From contig CALUYU010000026.1 in assembly GCA_944325075.1 (NCBI GenBank), forward strand, positions 1-33,663: 33,663 nucleotides of DNA, written 5' to 3'. Both the position numbers and the translations under genes were made by a program. The notes beneath the pieces were generated by a model. That model saw only the letters and a list, made by a program, of their open reading frames with translations. It ran no database searches and was not told the origin of the DNA. Positions 1 to 33,455 of this stretch are shown here, piece after piece. This stretch comes from Candidatus Gastranaerophilales bacterium (GTDB lineage: Bacteria > Cyanobacteriota > Vampirovibrionia > Gastranaerophilales > Gastranaerophilaceae). Position 1 is the stretch's first letter. Each line of letters begins with the position of its first letter.

Positions 1-261
1 CCTCCTTTTCGTCGGCAACAAGAGGAGCTGCAAGTTCAGGATGACATGGAGAATCTTTTATCGACCTTTTCCATATGCGTCCAACACAGTTCAATGTAGA
101 TTGGGGTTTCACCCCAACAAAATATTTATTTACGTTTGATACAGAAAACTTTGATTTGGTGAAAAGTTTGGAGAAAGATAATTTTGACCAAAAGTCTTGT
201 CTCCCTTGAGGTTCCTTCCCCCCCCCCCCCCCGTATGCCCTGCTATACTTGACTTTTCCAT
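1..261 (-). CDS. 5' end of a pilin-type gene behind a 15-G tract; out of frame, runs off the left edge
   Basis: On the minus strand a GGAGG site precedes ATG at 261, giving M-E-K-S-S-I-A-G-H-T and then a run of 15 G (218-232). As written, the frame from this ATG ends at TAA 130-132. The frame that 13 or 16 G would give is open without a stop to the window edge. It begins K-E-P-Q-G-R-Q-D-F and continues S-K-L-S-F-S-K-L-F-T-K-S-K-F-S-V-S. This matches the leader of the pilin-like gene at 32435-33334 (S-K-L-P-F-F-K-F-F-S-N-S-K-F-S-V-S). Further on, C-H-P-E-L-A-A-P-L-V-A-D matches the leader of the gene at 25829-27118. The pilin body itself lies outside the window, so its identity is inferred from the leader only. 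The gene is either phase-OFF or affected by a homopolymer assembly error. Confidence 0.6.
218..232 (-). repeat. Homopolymer tract, 15 G on the minus strand (C15 on plus)
   Basis: Uninterrupted C15 on the plus strand, ten codons after the ATG at 261. Tracts this long are prone to slippage. A change to 13 or 16 would connect the ATG to the long open leader frame. Confidence 0.9.
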
Positions 262-486: not shown

Positions 487-1341
487 TTAGAACCAAGGGT
501 AATCGTCTTTGATTTGCCAACCGTCAATCTGAATCAATGCTCCACAATATGATGCATTATCTTTACAGTTTGCTAAAATTGTAGACCTTGTTGCGTCTTT
601 AACTTTTAGCCTATAATCGTCTGTTAATTGGTAATTTCTTGAAAACATGAATCTTGTACCCGATGCATAAGGAAGCATAGCATAATGAACATCCTTTCCA
701 ATAACATTTTTCCCATTAGGCCCGTCAATGTCCATGACAAAATACATACCTAATACGTACCTTATACCATTTTCATCAAGACCGGTGGTTGGGGAACAAA
801 GAATAACAGTCCCATTATTCAACCTTAAAAAAGGACCTGAAGCTGTAGGTGGTGCAAAGTTACGACCATCAGGCCAAGTAATAGCCCTTTTATACCCTAG
901 GTCAGCCAATGTAGCAGTTTCAGTAAATTGAGCTCCGGTAAGATAAGGAAAAAAGTATGTTTTTACAATTTTCCCCATATGTGTTCTAGCCTCGGCTTTA
1001 TCACGATCCGCATCGTATTCTCCTCTATTAACATTATTTAACAACTCCCAACTTGAAATTTCTCCAAAGTCCGCTTCAGCCCGTCTTGCAGCATTACTCA
1101 TGATATTAAAATTGACCTTTAATCTGTTAATTATTACATGCTTTTCGTAATTTTGAATGAGAACAGGAAGTGTCATAGCAGCAACAACACCTATAACACC
1201 AAGAGTTATGAGAACTTCAGCAAGAGTAAATCCCAATCGAATAGAGGATCCAGAGTTCACCGAAACGAATTTTACAAAATTAAACTCCAATCTATTTTTG
1301 AATATATTCACTAAATTAAACATGTTTGACAGCTTATGCAT
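487..1341 (-). CDS. Type IV pilin-like protein (prepilin N-terminal methylation domain)
   Basis: 284 residues. A class III signal is visible: G37, then F-T-L-A-E-V-L-I-T-L-G-V-I-G-V-V-A-A-M-T-L-P (38 onward), with the glutamate at +5 and a hydrophobic helix of about 20 residues. Prepilin peptidase would be expected to cut after G37, so the leader (37 aa) is longer than usual. The mature part has the segment D-I-D-G-P-N-G-K-N-V-I-G-K-D and ends with paired cysteines and W-Q-I-K-D-D-Y-P-W-F. Both resemble the gene at 32435-33334, so the two belong to one family. ATG 1341 is supported by GGAGG five bases upstream and a good promoter (1364-1392). The protein is probably exported as a pilin or pseudopilin subunit. 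Whether it forms a pilus, a secretion pseudopilus or a DNA-uptake fibre cannot be told from sequence. Confidence 0.85.
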   Translation of the reverse strand: MHKLSNMFNLVNIFKNRLEFNFVKFVSVNSGSSIRLGFTLAEVLITLGVIGVVAAMTLPVLIQNYEKHVIINRLKVNFNIMSNAARRAEADFGEISSWELLNNVNRGEYDADRDKAEARTHMGKIVKTYFFPYLTGAQFTETATLADLGYKRAITWPDGRNFAPPTASGPFLRLNNGTVILCSPTTGLDENGIRYVLGMYFVMDIDGPNGKNVIGKDVHYAMLPYASGTRFMFSRNYQLTDDYRLKVKDATRSTILANCKDNASYCGALIQIDGWQIKDDYPWF

Positions 1342-1417: not shown

Positions 1418-1574
1418 ACAAAAACGCATGAGGGTTCTCATACGTTCTTCTTAATAATTTATTTTTAAAAGAGGATTTATTTATTTTTATTAAAATTTTG
1501 GGAAATCCTTGTCCCCCTTGAGGTTCCTTACCCACCCCCCCCCCCGTATGCCGTGCTATGATTGACTTTCCCAT
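1410..1574 (-). CDS. Short leader ORF of the poly-G module, not joined to the downstream pilin
   Basis: ATG 1574 follows GGGAGG and gives M-G-K-S-I-I-A-R-H-T, an 11-G tract, then K-E-P-Q-G-G-Q-G-F. This is the same leader sequence and frame as at the other three modules. Instead of continuing into a pilin, the frame ends at TAA 1410-1412 after about 54 residues. Its last third overlaps a hairpin that looks like a terminator (1420-1446). The pilin at 487-1341 has its own promoter and ribosome site in another frame. It is either a decayed module whose pilin was replaced, or a translated leader ahead of an attenuator. Expression is unproven. Confidence 0.45.
   Translation of the reverse strand: MGKSIIARHTGGGVGKEPQGGQGFPKILIKINKSSFKNKLLRRTYENPHAFLCS
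1420..1446 (-). terminator. Hairpin with T run at the end of the leader ORF
   Basis: Read on the minus strand: AACGTATGAG, loop AACC, CTCATGCGTT, then TTT. The stem is 10 bp with one G-T wobble, and five T in a row begin in the stem's last bases. The wobble pairs only in minus-strand RNA, which fits use in that direction. It would stop transcripts started at the poly-G module promoter before they reach the pilin gene. Confidence 0.5.
1535..1545 (-). repeat. Homopolymer tract, 11 G on the minus strand
   Basis: C11 on the plus strand, extended by CCCA on the left. It sits ten codons after ATG 1574, the same position as the other three tracts. This copy is in the leader frame as written. Confidence 0.85.
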
Positions 1575-25761: not shown

Positions 25762-25812
25762 ATGCTAAAATTCAATTATAGTACGGATTTCCCTAGGGGG
25801 GGGGGGGGCTAG
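25762..25812 (+). other. Strong start upstream of the pilin, put out of frame by the G13 tract
   Basis: ATG 25762 with an excellent GGAGG site reads M-L-K-F-N-Y-S-T-D-F-P-R-G-G-G-G and stops at TAG 25810-25812. If the tract had 12 G (or 15), the same frame would read G-A-R-L-T-P-K-A-L-S-Y-G and continue without a stop into the pilin frame to 27118. That would give a protein of about 450 residues. Confidence 0.7.
25796..25808 (+). repeat. Homopolymer tract of 13 G
   Basis: Uninterrupted G13 between the upstream ATG and the pilin frame. Loss of one G or gain of two joins them. Confidence 0.9.
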
Positions 25813-25828: not shown

Positions 25829-27118
25829 TTGTCCTATGGCCATTACGGCAAATTGCATGTGTCAGGACAACGGTATAGACACGTTTTTGATAATTTCGTA
25901 AGGATAAAATACAGTCAAAATACAGGTTGTAGGTTTTACAACAACAAAATTAAAGTAGGTTGGGGCTTGTCCCTGAGGGACTTCCCTATAACGTGTCGCT
26001 GTGTGGAATATTTTAAAGATAATGTAGGTTGGGGTTTCTACCCCAACCTACATAAAAACTGCGATGACCTCATCGGGAAAAAGTCGATAAATAGTTCCCC
26101 ATGTCATCCTGAAATTGCAGCTCCTCTTGTTGCCGACGTAAAGGAGGCTTACAAGGGAGGGTGCTCGCAGAGTATTTCAGGATCCTACCACCTGCAAGAA
26201 TATACAGATTTCAATATCAATGAATCTAATGTTGGGGTGGAAACCCCAACCTACAATAATATTTCGCTGAATACTAAAGAGCGCAGCATAATATGGCGGC
26301 GCCTCAGGCCACACTCGCCTCGTAAAGTCGCGTTCACCTTGGCGGAAGTTTTTTCACCATACTATTTATCGCCTCGTCGAATTGCATTTACTCTGGCCGA
26401 GGTTTTAATAACCCTAGGCATAATCGGGGTTGTTGCTGCTATGACCCTTCCGTCTCTTATCCAAAAATATCAGGACAAAGAGCTGGCAAATCTTGTAAGA
26501 AAAGTTTACTCTGATGTAAATAATGCTGTTTTAAAAGCTCAATCCGACTTTTCTCTTGTGGGTGATAATTCCGGCTTATTTAATCCATCAAATACACATA
26601 TGCAGACTGCTCAGAATTTTATAAAGTATTTTAACGGAGCCAAAATTTGTGAAAATTCCAGACAAAAAGACTGTTCACATTATTATTATGGGATAAAATA
26701 CGCTTTAATGTATACAGATAACAAACAAACTGCTACGGTATGGGAAAGTGCTTATCCTGCAATAGTACTAAATAATGGAGCAATTTTGTATATAACGCAG
26801 CGCCATAATGCAGACTGCTATGCAATAGAATCCTATGTTCCAACAGATGAACATGGGAGGCCTATTCTTGACGAGAATGGCAACGAACAAGTTCGCTCAA
26901 ACCCAGTACATCTTTGCGGTTCAATTATAATGGATGTAAATGGCACAAAACGACCTAACAGATACGGTCAGGATGTTTATGCTATTATGATTTATAAAAA
27001 TAAAGTAGGGCCGTCATATCAAAAAAATACAGGCAGTGAAAGCTTTAAAAATATATTATCCGGGAAAGATAAATTTATTTATACGGATTATGATAAAGGT
27101 GCAAGCATGAGTCAATAA
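25829..27118 (+). CDS. Type IV pilin-like protein with a very long, repeat-built leader; poly-G controlled
   Basis: The frame is open from the G tract to 27118. TTG 25829 has no ribosome site, so the natural start is probably ATG 25762 in a 12-G state. F-T-L-A-E-V occurs twice: at residue 169 (F-T-L-A-E-V-F-S-P-Y-Y-L-S-P-R-R-I-A) and at residue 187, where it continues L-I-T-L-G-I-I-G-V-V-A-A-M-T-L-P. The second copy is the true pilin helix. The 168 residues before it are translated repeats, including V-G-W-G-F-Y-P-N-L, C-H-P-E-I-A-A-P-L-V-A-D and N-V-G-V-E-T-P-T-Y. The mature domain has several Cys and the family segment D-V-N-G-T-K-R-P-N-R-Y-G-Q-D. A long open frame in AT-rich repeat DNA argues that this leader is or was translated. 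The protein is probably an exported pilin or pseudopilin. Confidence 0.75.
   Translation: MSYGHYGKLHVSGQRYRHVFDNFVRIKYSQNTGCRFYNNKIKVGWGLSLRDFPITCRCVEYFKDNVGWGFYPNLHKNCDDLIGKKSINSSPCHPEIAAPLVADVKEAYKGGCSQSISGSYHLQEYTDFNINESNVGVETPTYNNISLNTKERSIIWRRLRPHSPRKVAFTLAEVFSPYYLSPRRIAFTLAEVLITLGIIGVVAAMTLPSLIQKYQDKELANLVRKVYSDVNNAVLKAQSDFSLVGDNSGLFNPSNTHMQTAQNFIKYFNGAKICENSRQKDCSHYYYGIKYALMYTDNKQTATVWESAYPAIVLNNGAILYITQRHNADCYAIESYVPTDEHGRPILDENGNEQVRSNPVHLCGSIIMDVNGTKRPNRYGQDVYAIMIYKNKVGPSYQKNTGSESFKNILSGKDKFIYTDYDKGASMSQ
26007..26295 (+). repeat. Repeat families inside the translated leader
   Basis: GTAGGTTGGGG / CCCCAACCTAC stem (about 26022-26053), CATCCTGAAATT...TTTCAGGAT arms (about 26103-26204), a second GGGGTGGAAACCCC stem (about 26230-26250), and a block (26258-26293) shared with 1846-1883. 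The C-H-P-E-(I/L)-A-A-P-L-V-A-D segment is also found, in the coding frame, at the left window edge. Confidence 0.65.
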
Positions 27119-32434: not shown

Positions 32435-33334
32435 TTATAATTTATAAGGATAATCATCCTTAAACTCCCAATTGTCCAGTTCCAGAAGACGGGTACAAGC
32501 ATATTTATAAGATGAATCCTTACAGTGGTTTAAAGCAGATTCTCTACTATTACGGTCATATTTTAATCTTGTACCCCAAGTCTGATTTGCTCTCCCAAAC
32601 TGATCAAGTTTATCAGTTGTTGTTGTACACAATAAAAAATAAAATTTATCGATTCCTTGTTGGTTTGGTCTGTTTAATCCGTTTACATCATATTGAACAT
32701 CAATACAAGCTCCGTTTGAAATCTGTGCAACACTACCATCTGCAAGATAAATAGTTGTATAATCCCCGTAATTAGGATCACTTTCAAGAACTTTAACGTA
32801 CTTAATATATGGTAAAATGTATTGGCTTATAAAGTTATAAGAGTCTACATTTCCTGCAGCAACATCATACTGCAGATTGCCATTATCATCTAAAATGGGA
32901 TTACCATCATCATCTTTCAAAATATTATTAGGTGTTTTATTCCAGTTTTCTGTTTCTCCATAGTCTTTTTGCGCCATAAGTATGGCCTGCTGCATTGTGC
33001 TGTTGAACTTTTTTAATCTTGAGATAGTCTCTGTTTTCCTGCCATTAGCAATCAATGCCGGCAACGTCATAGCAGCAACAACACCGATTATGCCTAGGGT
33101 TATTAGGACTTCTGCAAGAGTAAACGCAACCTTACGAGGCGAGTTGTAGTATGGTGAAAAAACCTCTGCGAGAGTAAACGCGGGGACTAAGTCCCCTCTT
33201 ACATGACGCTGCGCTGTCCGAGATGCAGAAGAGCTTTTTGTAGGTTGGGGTTTCACCCCAACATAATATTTATTTACATCTGATACAGAAAACTTTGAGT
33301 TGGAGAAAAATTTGAAGAAAGGTAATTTTGACAA
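32435..33334 (-). CDS. Type IV pilin-like protein with duplicated F-T-L-A-E-V motif; poly-G controlled
   Basis: 299 residues from TTG 33334, which has no ribosome site. The probable real start is ATG 33404 in a 12-G state. The leader is built from repeats (S-K-F-S-V-S-D-V-N-K-Y-Y-V-G-V-K-P-Q-P, then R-T-A-Q-R-H-V-R-G-D). F-T-L-A-E-V occurs at residue 53 (followed by F-S-P-Y-Y-N-S-P-R-K-V-A) and again at residue 71 followed by L-I-T-L-G-I-I-G-V-V-A-A-M-T-L-P. The 18-residue spacing equals that in the gene at 25829. The mature domain contains D-V-N-G-L-N-R-P-N-Q-Q-G-I-D, several Cys, and the C-terminus W-E-F-K-D-D-Y-P-Y-K-L, shared with the pilin at 487-1341. An exported pilin or pseudopilin is the likely role. 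Confidence 0.78.
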   Translation of the reverse strand: MSKLPFFKFFSNSKFSVSDVNKYYVGVKPQPTKSSSASRTAQRHVRGDLVPAFTLAEVFSPYYNSPRKVAFTLAEVLITLGIIGVVAAMTLPALIANGRKTETISRLKKFNSTMQQAILMAQKDYGETENWNKTPNNILKDDDGNPILDDNGNLQYDVAAGNVDSYNFISQYILPYIKYVKVLESDPNYGDYTTIYLADGSVAQISNGACIDVQYDVNGLNRPNQQGIDKFYFLLCTTTTDKLDQFGRANQTWGTRLKYDRNSRESALNHCKDSSYKYACTRLLELDNWEFKDDYPYKL

Positions 33335-33359
33335 AAACCCTTGTCTCCCTTGAGGTTCG

Positions 33360-33404
33360 TTACCCCCCCCCCCCCGTATTCATTGCTATACTTAACTTTT
33401 CCAT
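33360..33404 (-). other. Strong start upstream of the pilin, put out of frame by the G13 tract
   Basis: ATG 33404 after GGAGGG reads M-E-K-L-S-I-A-M-N-T-G-G-G-G and stops at TAA (33360-33362). With 12 G it would read G-G-N-E-P-Q-G-R-Q-G-F-L-S-K-L and continue into the pilin without a stop. Confidence 0.7.
33363..33375 (-). repeat. Homopolymer tract, 13 G on the minus strand
   Basis: C13 on the plus strand, at the same position in the module as the other three tracts. One G fewer joins the ATG at 33404 to the pilin frame. Confidence 0.9.
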
Positions 33405-33427
33405 ATATTTACCCTCCTTTTTCTTTT

Positions 33428-33455
33428 ATTATACATTATTTTTCGAATTTTGCAA
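33428..33455 (-). promoter_or_regulatory. Promoter of the poly-G pilin module at 33404
   Basis: Minus strand: TTGCAA (33450-33455), 16-bp spacer, TATAAT (33428-33433), then AAAGGAGGG and ATG 33404. Confidence 0.75.

Follow-up and report, generated by a model that had tools for sequence, protein, structure and literature searches.

About 60 or more genes for type IV pilin-like proteins in the genome of a Candidatus Gastranaerophilales bacterium each begin at a near-identical short leader that carries a G-run switch. Slipped-strand mispairing in this prepilin leader, namely translational phase variation spread over a large pilin repertoire, is very probably the explanation. The window, i.e. the whole stretch of DNA analysed (33,663 nt), is one entire contig (C26) of this genome, which is a draft of 2.26 Mb in 107 contigs. 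The features of the locus that starts at the ATG at position 33404 are listed below. The promoter boxes, the Shine-Dalgarno sequence and the stop codon next to the tract were assigned from the sequence, and the gene body from an alignment, profile matches, AlphaFold2 and dN/dS.

33450..33455, minus strand: -35 box TTGCAA of the shared promoter
33428..33433, minus strand: -10 box TATAAT, 16 nt from the -35 box
33412..33417, minus strand: Shine-Dalgarno sequence GGAGGG
33376..33404, minus strand: start ATG (33404-33402) and leader-A coding sequence MEKLSIAMNT, which reaches the tract
33363..33375, minus strand: poly-G tract of 13 G, the length switch (12 is ON; 13 and 14 are OFF)
33360..33362, minus strand: TAA directly 3' of the tract at 13 G
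33125..33359, minus strand: N-terminal extension from the tract to the prepilin cleavage motif, open only in the 12-G frame
32435..33124, minus strand: type IV pilin-like body, FTLAEVLITLGIIGVVAAMTLP...WEFKDDYPYKL, and stop

Direct reading of the minus strand agreed with the first-pass annotation, which had described an ATG at 33404 with GGAGGG, ten codons, 13 G and a TAA. Leader A up to the tract is 29 nt (ATGGAAAAGTTAAGTATAGCAATGAATAC). A tract of 13 G yields a product of 14 aa (MEKLSIAMNTGGGG, then the stop) and one of 14 G a product of 43 aa. With 12 G, the residues NEPQGRQGF are joined to the pilin frame, as had also been claimed, and a product of 322 aa (...GGGG-NEPQGRQGF...) that includes the motif FTLAEVLITLGIIGVVAAMTLP ends at 32435. 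The distance from 33404 to 32435 is 970 nt, a multiple of three plus one, and the assembled copy, with 13 G, is OFF.

In the proposed mechanism, the standard promoter would yield an mRNA in which the start codon and the first ten codons precede the poly-G tract, and G nucleotides would be gained or lost through slipped-strand mispairing at replication. At 12 G, and at every third length, the ribosome would pass through the extension to the prepilin motif FTLAEVLITLG and so produce the pilin, while translation would stop at the TAA right after the tract at 13 G and after 43 codons at 14 G. The unit of promoter, leader and tract appears to have been copied before dozens of pilins, so that each would switch independently and the cells of a clone would differ in their pilin set. 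Tract lengths would change within a population. The pilins would presumably be exported, assembled and exposed at the surface, where the benefit may be antigenic, adhesive or phage-receptor variation. Tract slippage that turns translation on and off would explain the position of the tract, the frame logic, the mixed states and the selection on the gene together.

The gene at ATG 33404 had been described as a second pilin. It is a pilin-like gene, but it is one of many, as leader A is a repeat with 62 copies in the 2.26-Mb genome (pattern search with at most 3 mismatches; none in a reversed-pattern control). The suggestion that a tract-length switch is common to pilin loci stands, and extends far beyond the two loci then considered. 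Pattern searches also recovered 90 G-runs of 11 or more from this genome, where 0.11 G/C runs of that length are expected under a first-order model of the window. Leader B, the type found at 25796, precedes at least 10 further pilin loci. Among the 55 leader-A copies examined, TTGnnn followed by 15-18 nt and TATAAT is present in 50, TATAAT in 53 and a Shine-Dalgarno-like motif in 54. Pairwise upstream alignment of the copies shows the common unit to be short: almost every pair aligns to 45 nt before the ATG, but the share falls to 64 % of pairs at 65-85 nt and to 10 % at 145 nt. All copy numbers are minimum values, because contigs of G000 (this genome) and G149 often start or stop in or near leaders.

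The window contains further switch loci.

25762..25808, plus strand: leader B with ATG 25762, MLKFNYSTDFP, then 13 G at 25796-25808
25829..27118, plus strand: pilin frame downstream of the 25796 tract, as listed from a TTG
218..261, minus strand: third tract copy, leader A with ATG 261 and 15 G at 218-232
1535..1574, minus strand: fourth tract copy, decayed leader A with ATG 1574 (11 G, T, 3 G)
487..1341, minus strand: pilin ORF behind the decayed leader, with its own ATG 1341 and a leader ending in Gly (RLGFTLAEV)

At the leader-B locus, the frame opened by 12 G is 451 aa long and contains the pilin motif twice (codons 191 and 209); the assembled 13 G are one base above the open length. The first-pass annotation had seen the same tract position and one-base offset at 25796 and 33404, and both loci do have 13 G and lie one base above their open length, but they are not independent. 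As both belong to multi-copy, related leader families, their common tract position is probably due to common descent and not to two inventions. The tract at 218-232 would be open at 16 G; its extension and gene are cut by the contig end. Behind the decayed leader at 1535, the pilin is reached by no length class.

The frame logic was surveyed over the 58 leader-A and leader-B loci, from this genome and a sister species, for which 900 nt or more follow the tract. Pilin sequence lies behind the tract in all 58. In 50 of them the pilin motif is reached at one, and only one, of the three length classes. The remaining eight, which include the 487-1341 pilin of the window, have an extra frame break or a leader of their own. 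Between tract and motif, the ON frames of 54 loci have no stops in 6,356 codons, whereas the two alternative frames contain 379 and 397, though the zero arises by construction since only loci that reach the motif were taken into this set; the 50 of 58 were not so selected. The ON frame is kept over 37-176 codons from tract to motif.

A start codon behind the tract, at TTG 33334 or elsewhere, would make the tract irrelevant. An ORF is listed from TTG 33334, and a few loci have their own ATG (e.g. 487-1341), yet there is no Shine-Dalgarno-like site in the sequence upstream of TTG 33334, the sole promoter, Shine-Dalgarno and ATG unit conserved over the copies precedes the tract, and the frame from the pre-tract ATG stays open all the way to the motif. 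Internal initiation is therefore very unlikely.

Other genera of the family provide independent support for a switch, as their leaders are mostly unrelated in sequence. A poly-G tract within 4-34 nt of FTLAE was found in 53 of 288 family genomes, representing 13 of the 41 genera sampled (control, 0). Of the 28 of these loci at which a start could be recognised, 27 are opened by one length class only. These leaders are about 15-30 aa long and many end in GFTLAEV, close to the usual prepilin form. In its simple form the switch would thus be an ordinary prepilin leader that includes a G-run, and the long extensions in the genus of the window look like later growth. A different arrangement was seen at loci in G219, G248 and G170, where the G-run is followed by TTGACA...TATAAT and then the pilin start, which places the tract 5' of the apparent promoter.

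Leader-A tracts in this genome range from 10 to 18 G and most are 13 G; each length is a single assembled value, and long G-runs can be miscalled by an assembler. Relative to their own open length, seven of the 42 leader-A and leader-B loci are ON (p=0.02), five are at -1 and 30 are at +1, an excess for which p=5e-7 is inflated by the shared descent of the loci. The first-pass annotation had considered that two of three lengths would be OFF by chance. In this genome, the +1 class is above the one third expected, whereas the sister species has no +1 bias, with six of 11 loci ON, four at +1 and one at -1. The shared descent of recent 13-G copies would be the simplest reason for the excess, but leader B has it as well, at other lengths.

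The same excess would fit a programmed slippage, in which +1 is the normal state and either RNA polymerase, slipping on the G-run, or the ribosome, shifting by +1 at GGG-TAA, yields a fixed share of pilin. As at known +1 frameshift sites, the +1-frame stop abuts the tract. However, the offset is kept neither in the sister species nor in other genera (13 at +1, eight at -1 and six ON; bias not significant), lengths vary from 10 to 18 within the one genome, and the stop at leader B is a TAG behind GGC, unlike a GGG-TAA slip. Programmed slippage as a whole is considered very unlikely, and a fixed +1 programmed frameshift was rejected because the offsets are spread in the sister species and in other genera.

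If the tract lengths were assembly or sequencing errors and the real count was 12 G, the genes would be ordinary and constitutive. This draft does have many contigs that end in or beside tracts, and long G-runs are error-prone. Against this, counts of 12, 13, 14 and others were called within one assembly, independent assemblies of other species have the same mixture, and a miscount leaves unexplained why dozens of pilin leaders have a long G-run in the same position. Error was accordingly judged extremely unlikely to be the explanation.

Slippage with switching is also consistent with the relatives. The related-strain search, from which records of this genome were excluded, matched only the sister species, whose MAG BRZ_DP__bin38 has at least 40 leader copies. 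Tract states differ among close homologues of the two species: the sister locus L263 is ON and L123 of this genome is OFF, with bodies 82 % identical, and sister locus L247 is ON and L112 OFF, with bodies 65 % identical. The first-pass annotation had named a lost open frame in close relatives as grounds for abandoning the reading; the frame is mostly kept, with one open class in close homologues, the syntenic sister orthologue described below being an exception. Excess tract length, a single opening class and differing states of homologues, three of the marks of SSR-mediated translational phase variation, were found.

The syntenic sister orthologue of the window pilin (L344, on contig 133 of the sister MAG) has the same neighbouring gene and a body 91 % identical in DNA, with a 2-nt deletion mid-body that could be real or an assembly error; its contig ends before the tract. 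Over 225 codons of this one pair, dN/dS is 0.17, which suggests that the pilin body is under purifying selection, as would be expected of an OFF gene that can be switched back on. This ratio argues against the G-runs being frameshift lesions of dead pilin copies. Such decay could be read from that deletion and from the eight leader-A and leader-B loci with further frame breaks or no joined frame, but promoter and Shine-Dalgarno sequences are kept in nearly all copies and the ON frames lack stops (in a set chosen as stated above). Decay as the general explanation is scarcely credible.

Loss of mismatch repair as a cause of the many tracts was rejected as regards MutS. This genome carries MutS_I, as do 143 of 145 family genomes, so that a missing MutS gene is not a source of increased slippage.

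In an alignment of relatives (A1), FTLAEVLITLGIIGVVAAMTLP is invariant or nearly so, and the mature N-terminus has F+1, Glu5 and about 21 hydrophobic residues. The AlphaFold2 model of the body (pLDDT 89.8) predicts an N-terminal helix at residues 2-56. Profile comparison with type IV pilins in PDB gave weak matches, mostly at the N-terminus (E 6.5e-4 to 0.02), and a Foldseek search for the fold of the pilin head gave no PDB match at E 0.001 or better. On the basis of the modelled N-terminal helix and the motif, the body can be likened to type IV pilins. The window pilin has a sub-threshold match to DUF6613, which 11 of 17 aligned relatives match, and the genome has one copy of prepilin peptidase (PF01478) above cut-off. 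At E 1e-10, the window pilin has at least 162 matches in its own genome and 95 in the sister species, and none or one in the congeners G145, G148 and G071.

Known pilin leaders have 6-26 residues and end in Gly-1 (PMC4471445). Leaders in this genome do not have that form, as 60 to 190 codons precede the motif and most have Ala-1. We therefore use the label pilin-like rather than proven pilin, and prepilin processing is not assured, given an extension far beyond 6-26 aa that usually ends in Ala and not Gly. The window extension (33125..33359) has Ala before FTLAEV and consists partly of genome repeats, with a palindrome at 33239-33268 and a first FTLAEV copy from 33178. More generally, the extensions (33125-33359 and 25829-26400 in the window; L001-L030 and L091-L153) are in-frame mosaics of genome repeats, and modules such as CHPELVSGS, VGVKPQPT and ASRTAQRHVRGDLVPAFTLAEV recur at different loci and are found in intergenic DNA too. 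At the orthologous locus of the sister species, the pilin is kept behind a different extension. An 18-codon tandem duplication that includes the prepilin motif (AFTLAEVFSPYY.SPRKV) precedes the real motif at 33125-33181, L007 and L100, in two or three copies, and some prepilins would therefore hold several possible cleavage sites.

A further possibility, put forward tentatively and with more doubt than belief, is that the promoter, start and poly-G unit is a dispersing switch cassette, recombined between pilins and tolerating in-frame growth of repeats, which would give about 60 separately switched subunits. If so, one gut cell line could hold a combinatorial pilin repertoire. Phage carriage of the cassette was considered and set aside, as only two IMG/VR sequences matched the leader pattern and both were without a G-run.

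Surface genes switched by slippage are best known in Neisseria, Campylobacter and Helicobacter. Neisseria opa genes have CTTCT pentanucleotide repeats, encode outer-membrane proteins and number about a dozen copies at most. They resemble the present genes in being a surface multi-gene family in which each copy has its own 5' coding-repeat switch and is separately switchable, and differ in the repeat, which here is poly-G, in the product, here pilins, and in the copy number, here 60 or more. At gonococcal pilE/pilS, gene conversion moves sequence from silent copies to one expressed locus. Pilin diversity likewise comes out of many pilin loci per genome, whereas here every copy comes with a promoter, a start and a switch of its own. 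Poly-G phase variation is already well known, pilus genes such as pilC included. The Neisseria pilC tract lies in the signal-peptide region. It is a genic poly-G tract of 9-20 G (PMC5953494). In pilC1/pilC2, as here, an in-frame G/C homopolymer of a pilus gene switches by frameshift; however, PilC is a pilus-associated protein with two copies per genome, and here dozens of pilin-like subunits share one leader. Neisserial phasomes reach maxima of 54 loci in the gonococcus and 47 in the meningococcus and number 36-82 in N. lactamica, and poly-G tracts average 15-19 per genome in the three richest Neisseria species (PMC5953494). Such phasomes are also genome-wide sets of surface genes switched by repeats, but comprise many unrelated genes and repeat types, whereas the 90 G-runs here mostly belong to a single leader design that precedes a single protein family.

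Poly-G switching of pilin subunits at such a scale, or in this lineage, is apparently unreported in the open-access literature. The host is an uncultured, non-photosynthetic gut relative of cyanobacteria with more long G-runs than the surveyed Neisseria species, and provides a natural system in which to ask, from metagenomes that already exist, how many switches a genome holds and how independent they are. Automated annotation may call switched pilins missing, truncated or pseudogenes.

Not all G-run leaders in this genome precede pilins. Leader C (CAAAACCCAATCATAG... then 10-12 G; L137, L143, L144, L146, L147 and L053) mostly opens just 60-80 codons and is mostly without an in-frame pilin. 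Long G-runs at L124, L131 and L151 join or interrupt non-pilin frames, with a weak tail-collar match, glycosyltransferase 2 and radical SAM.
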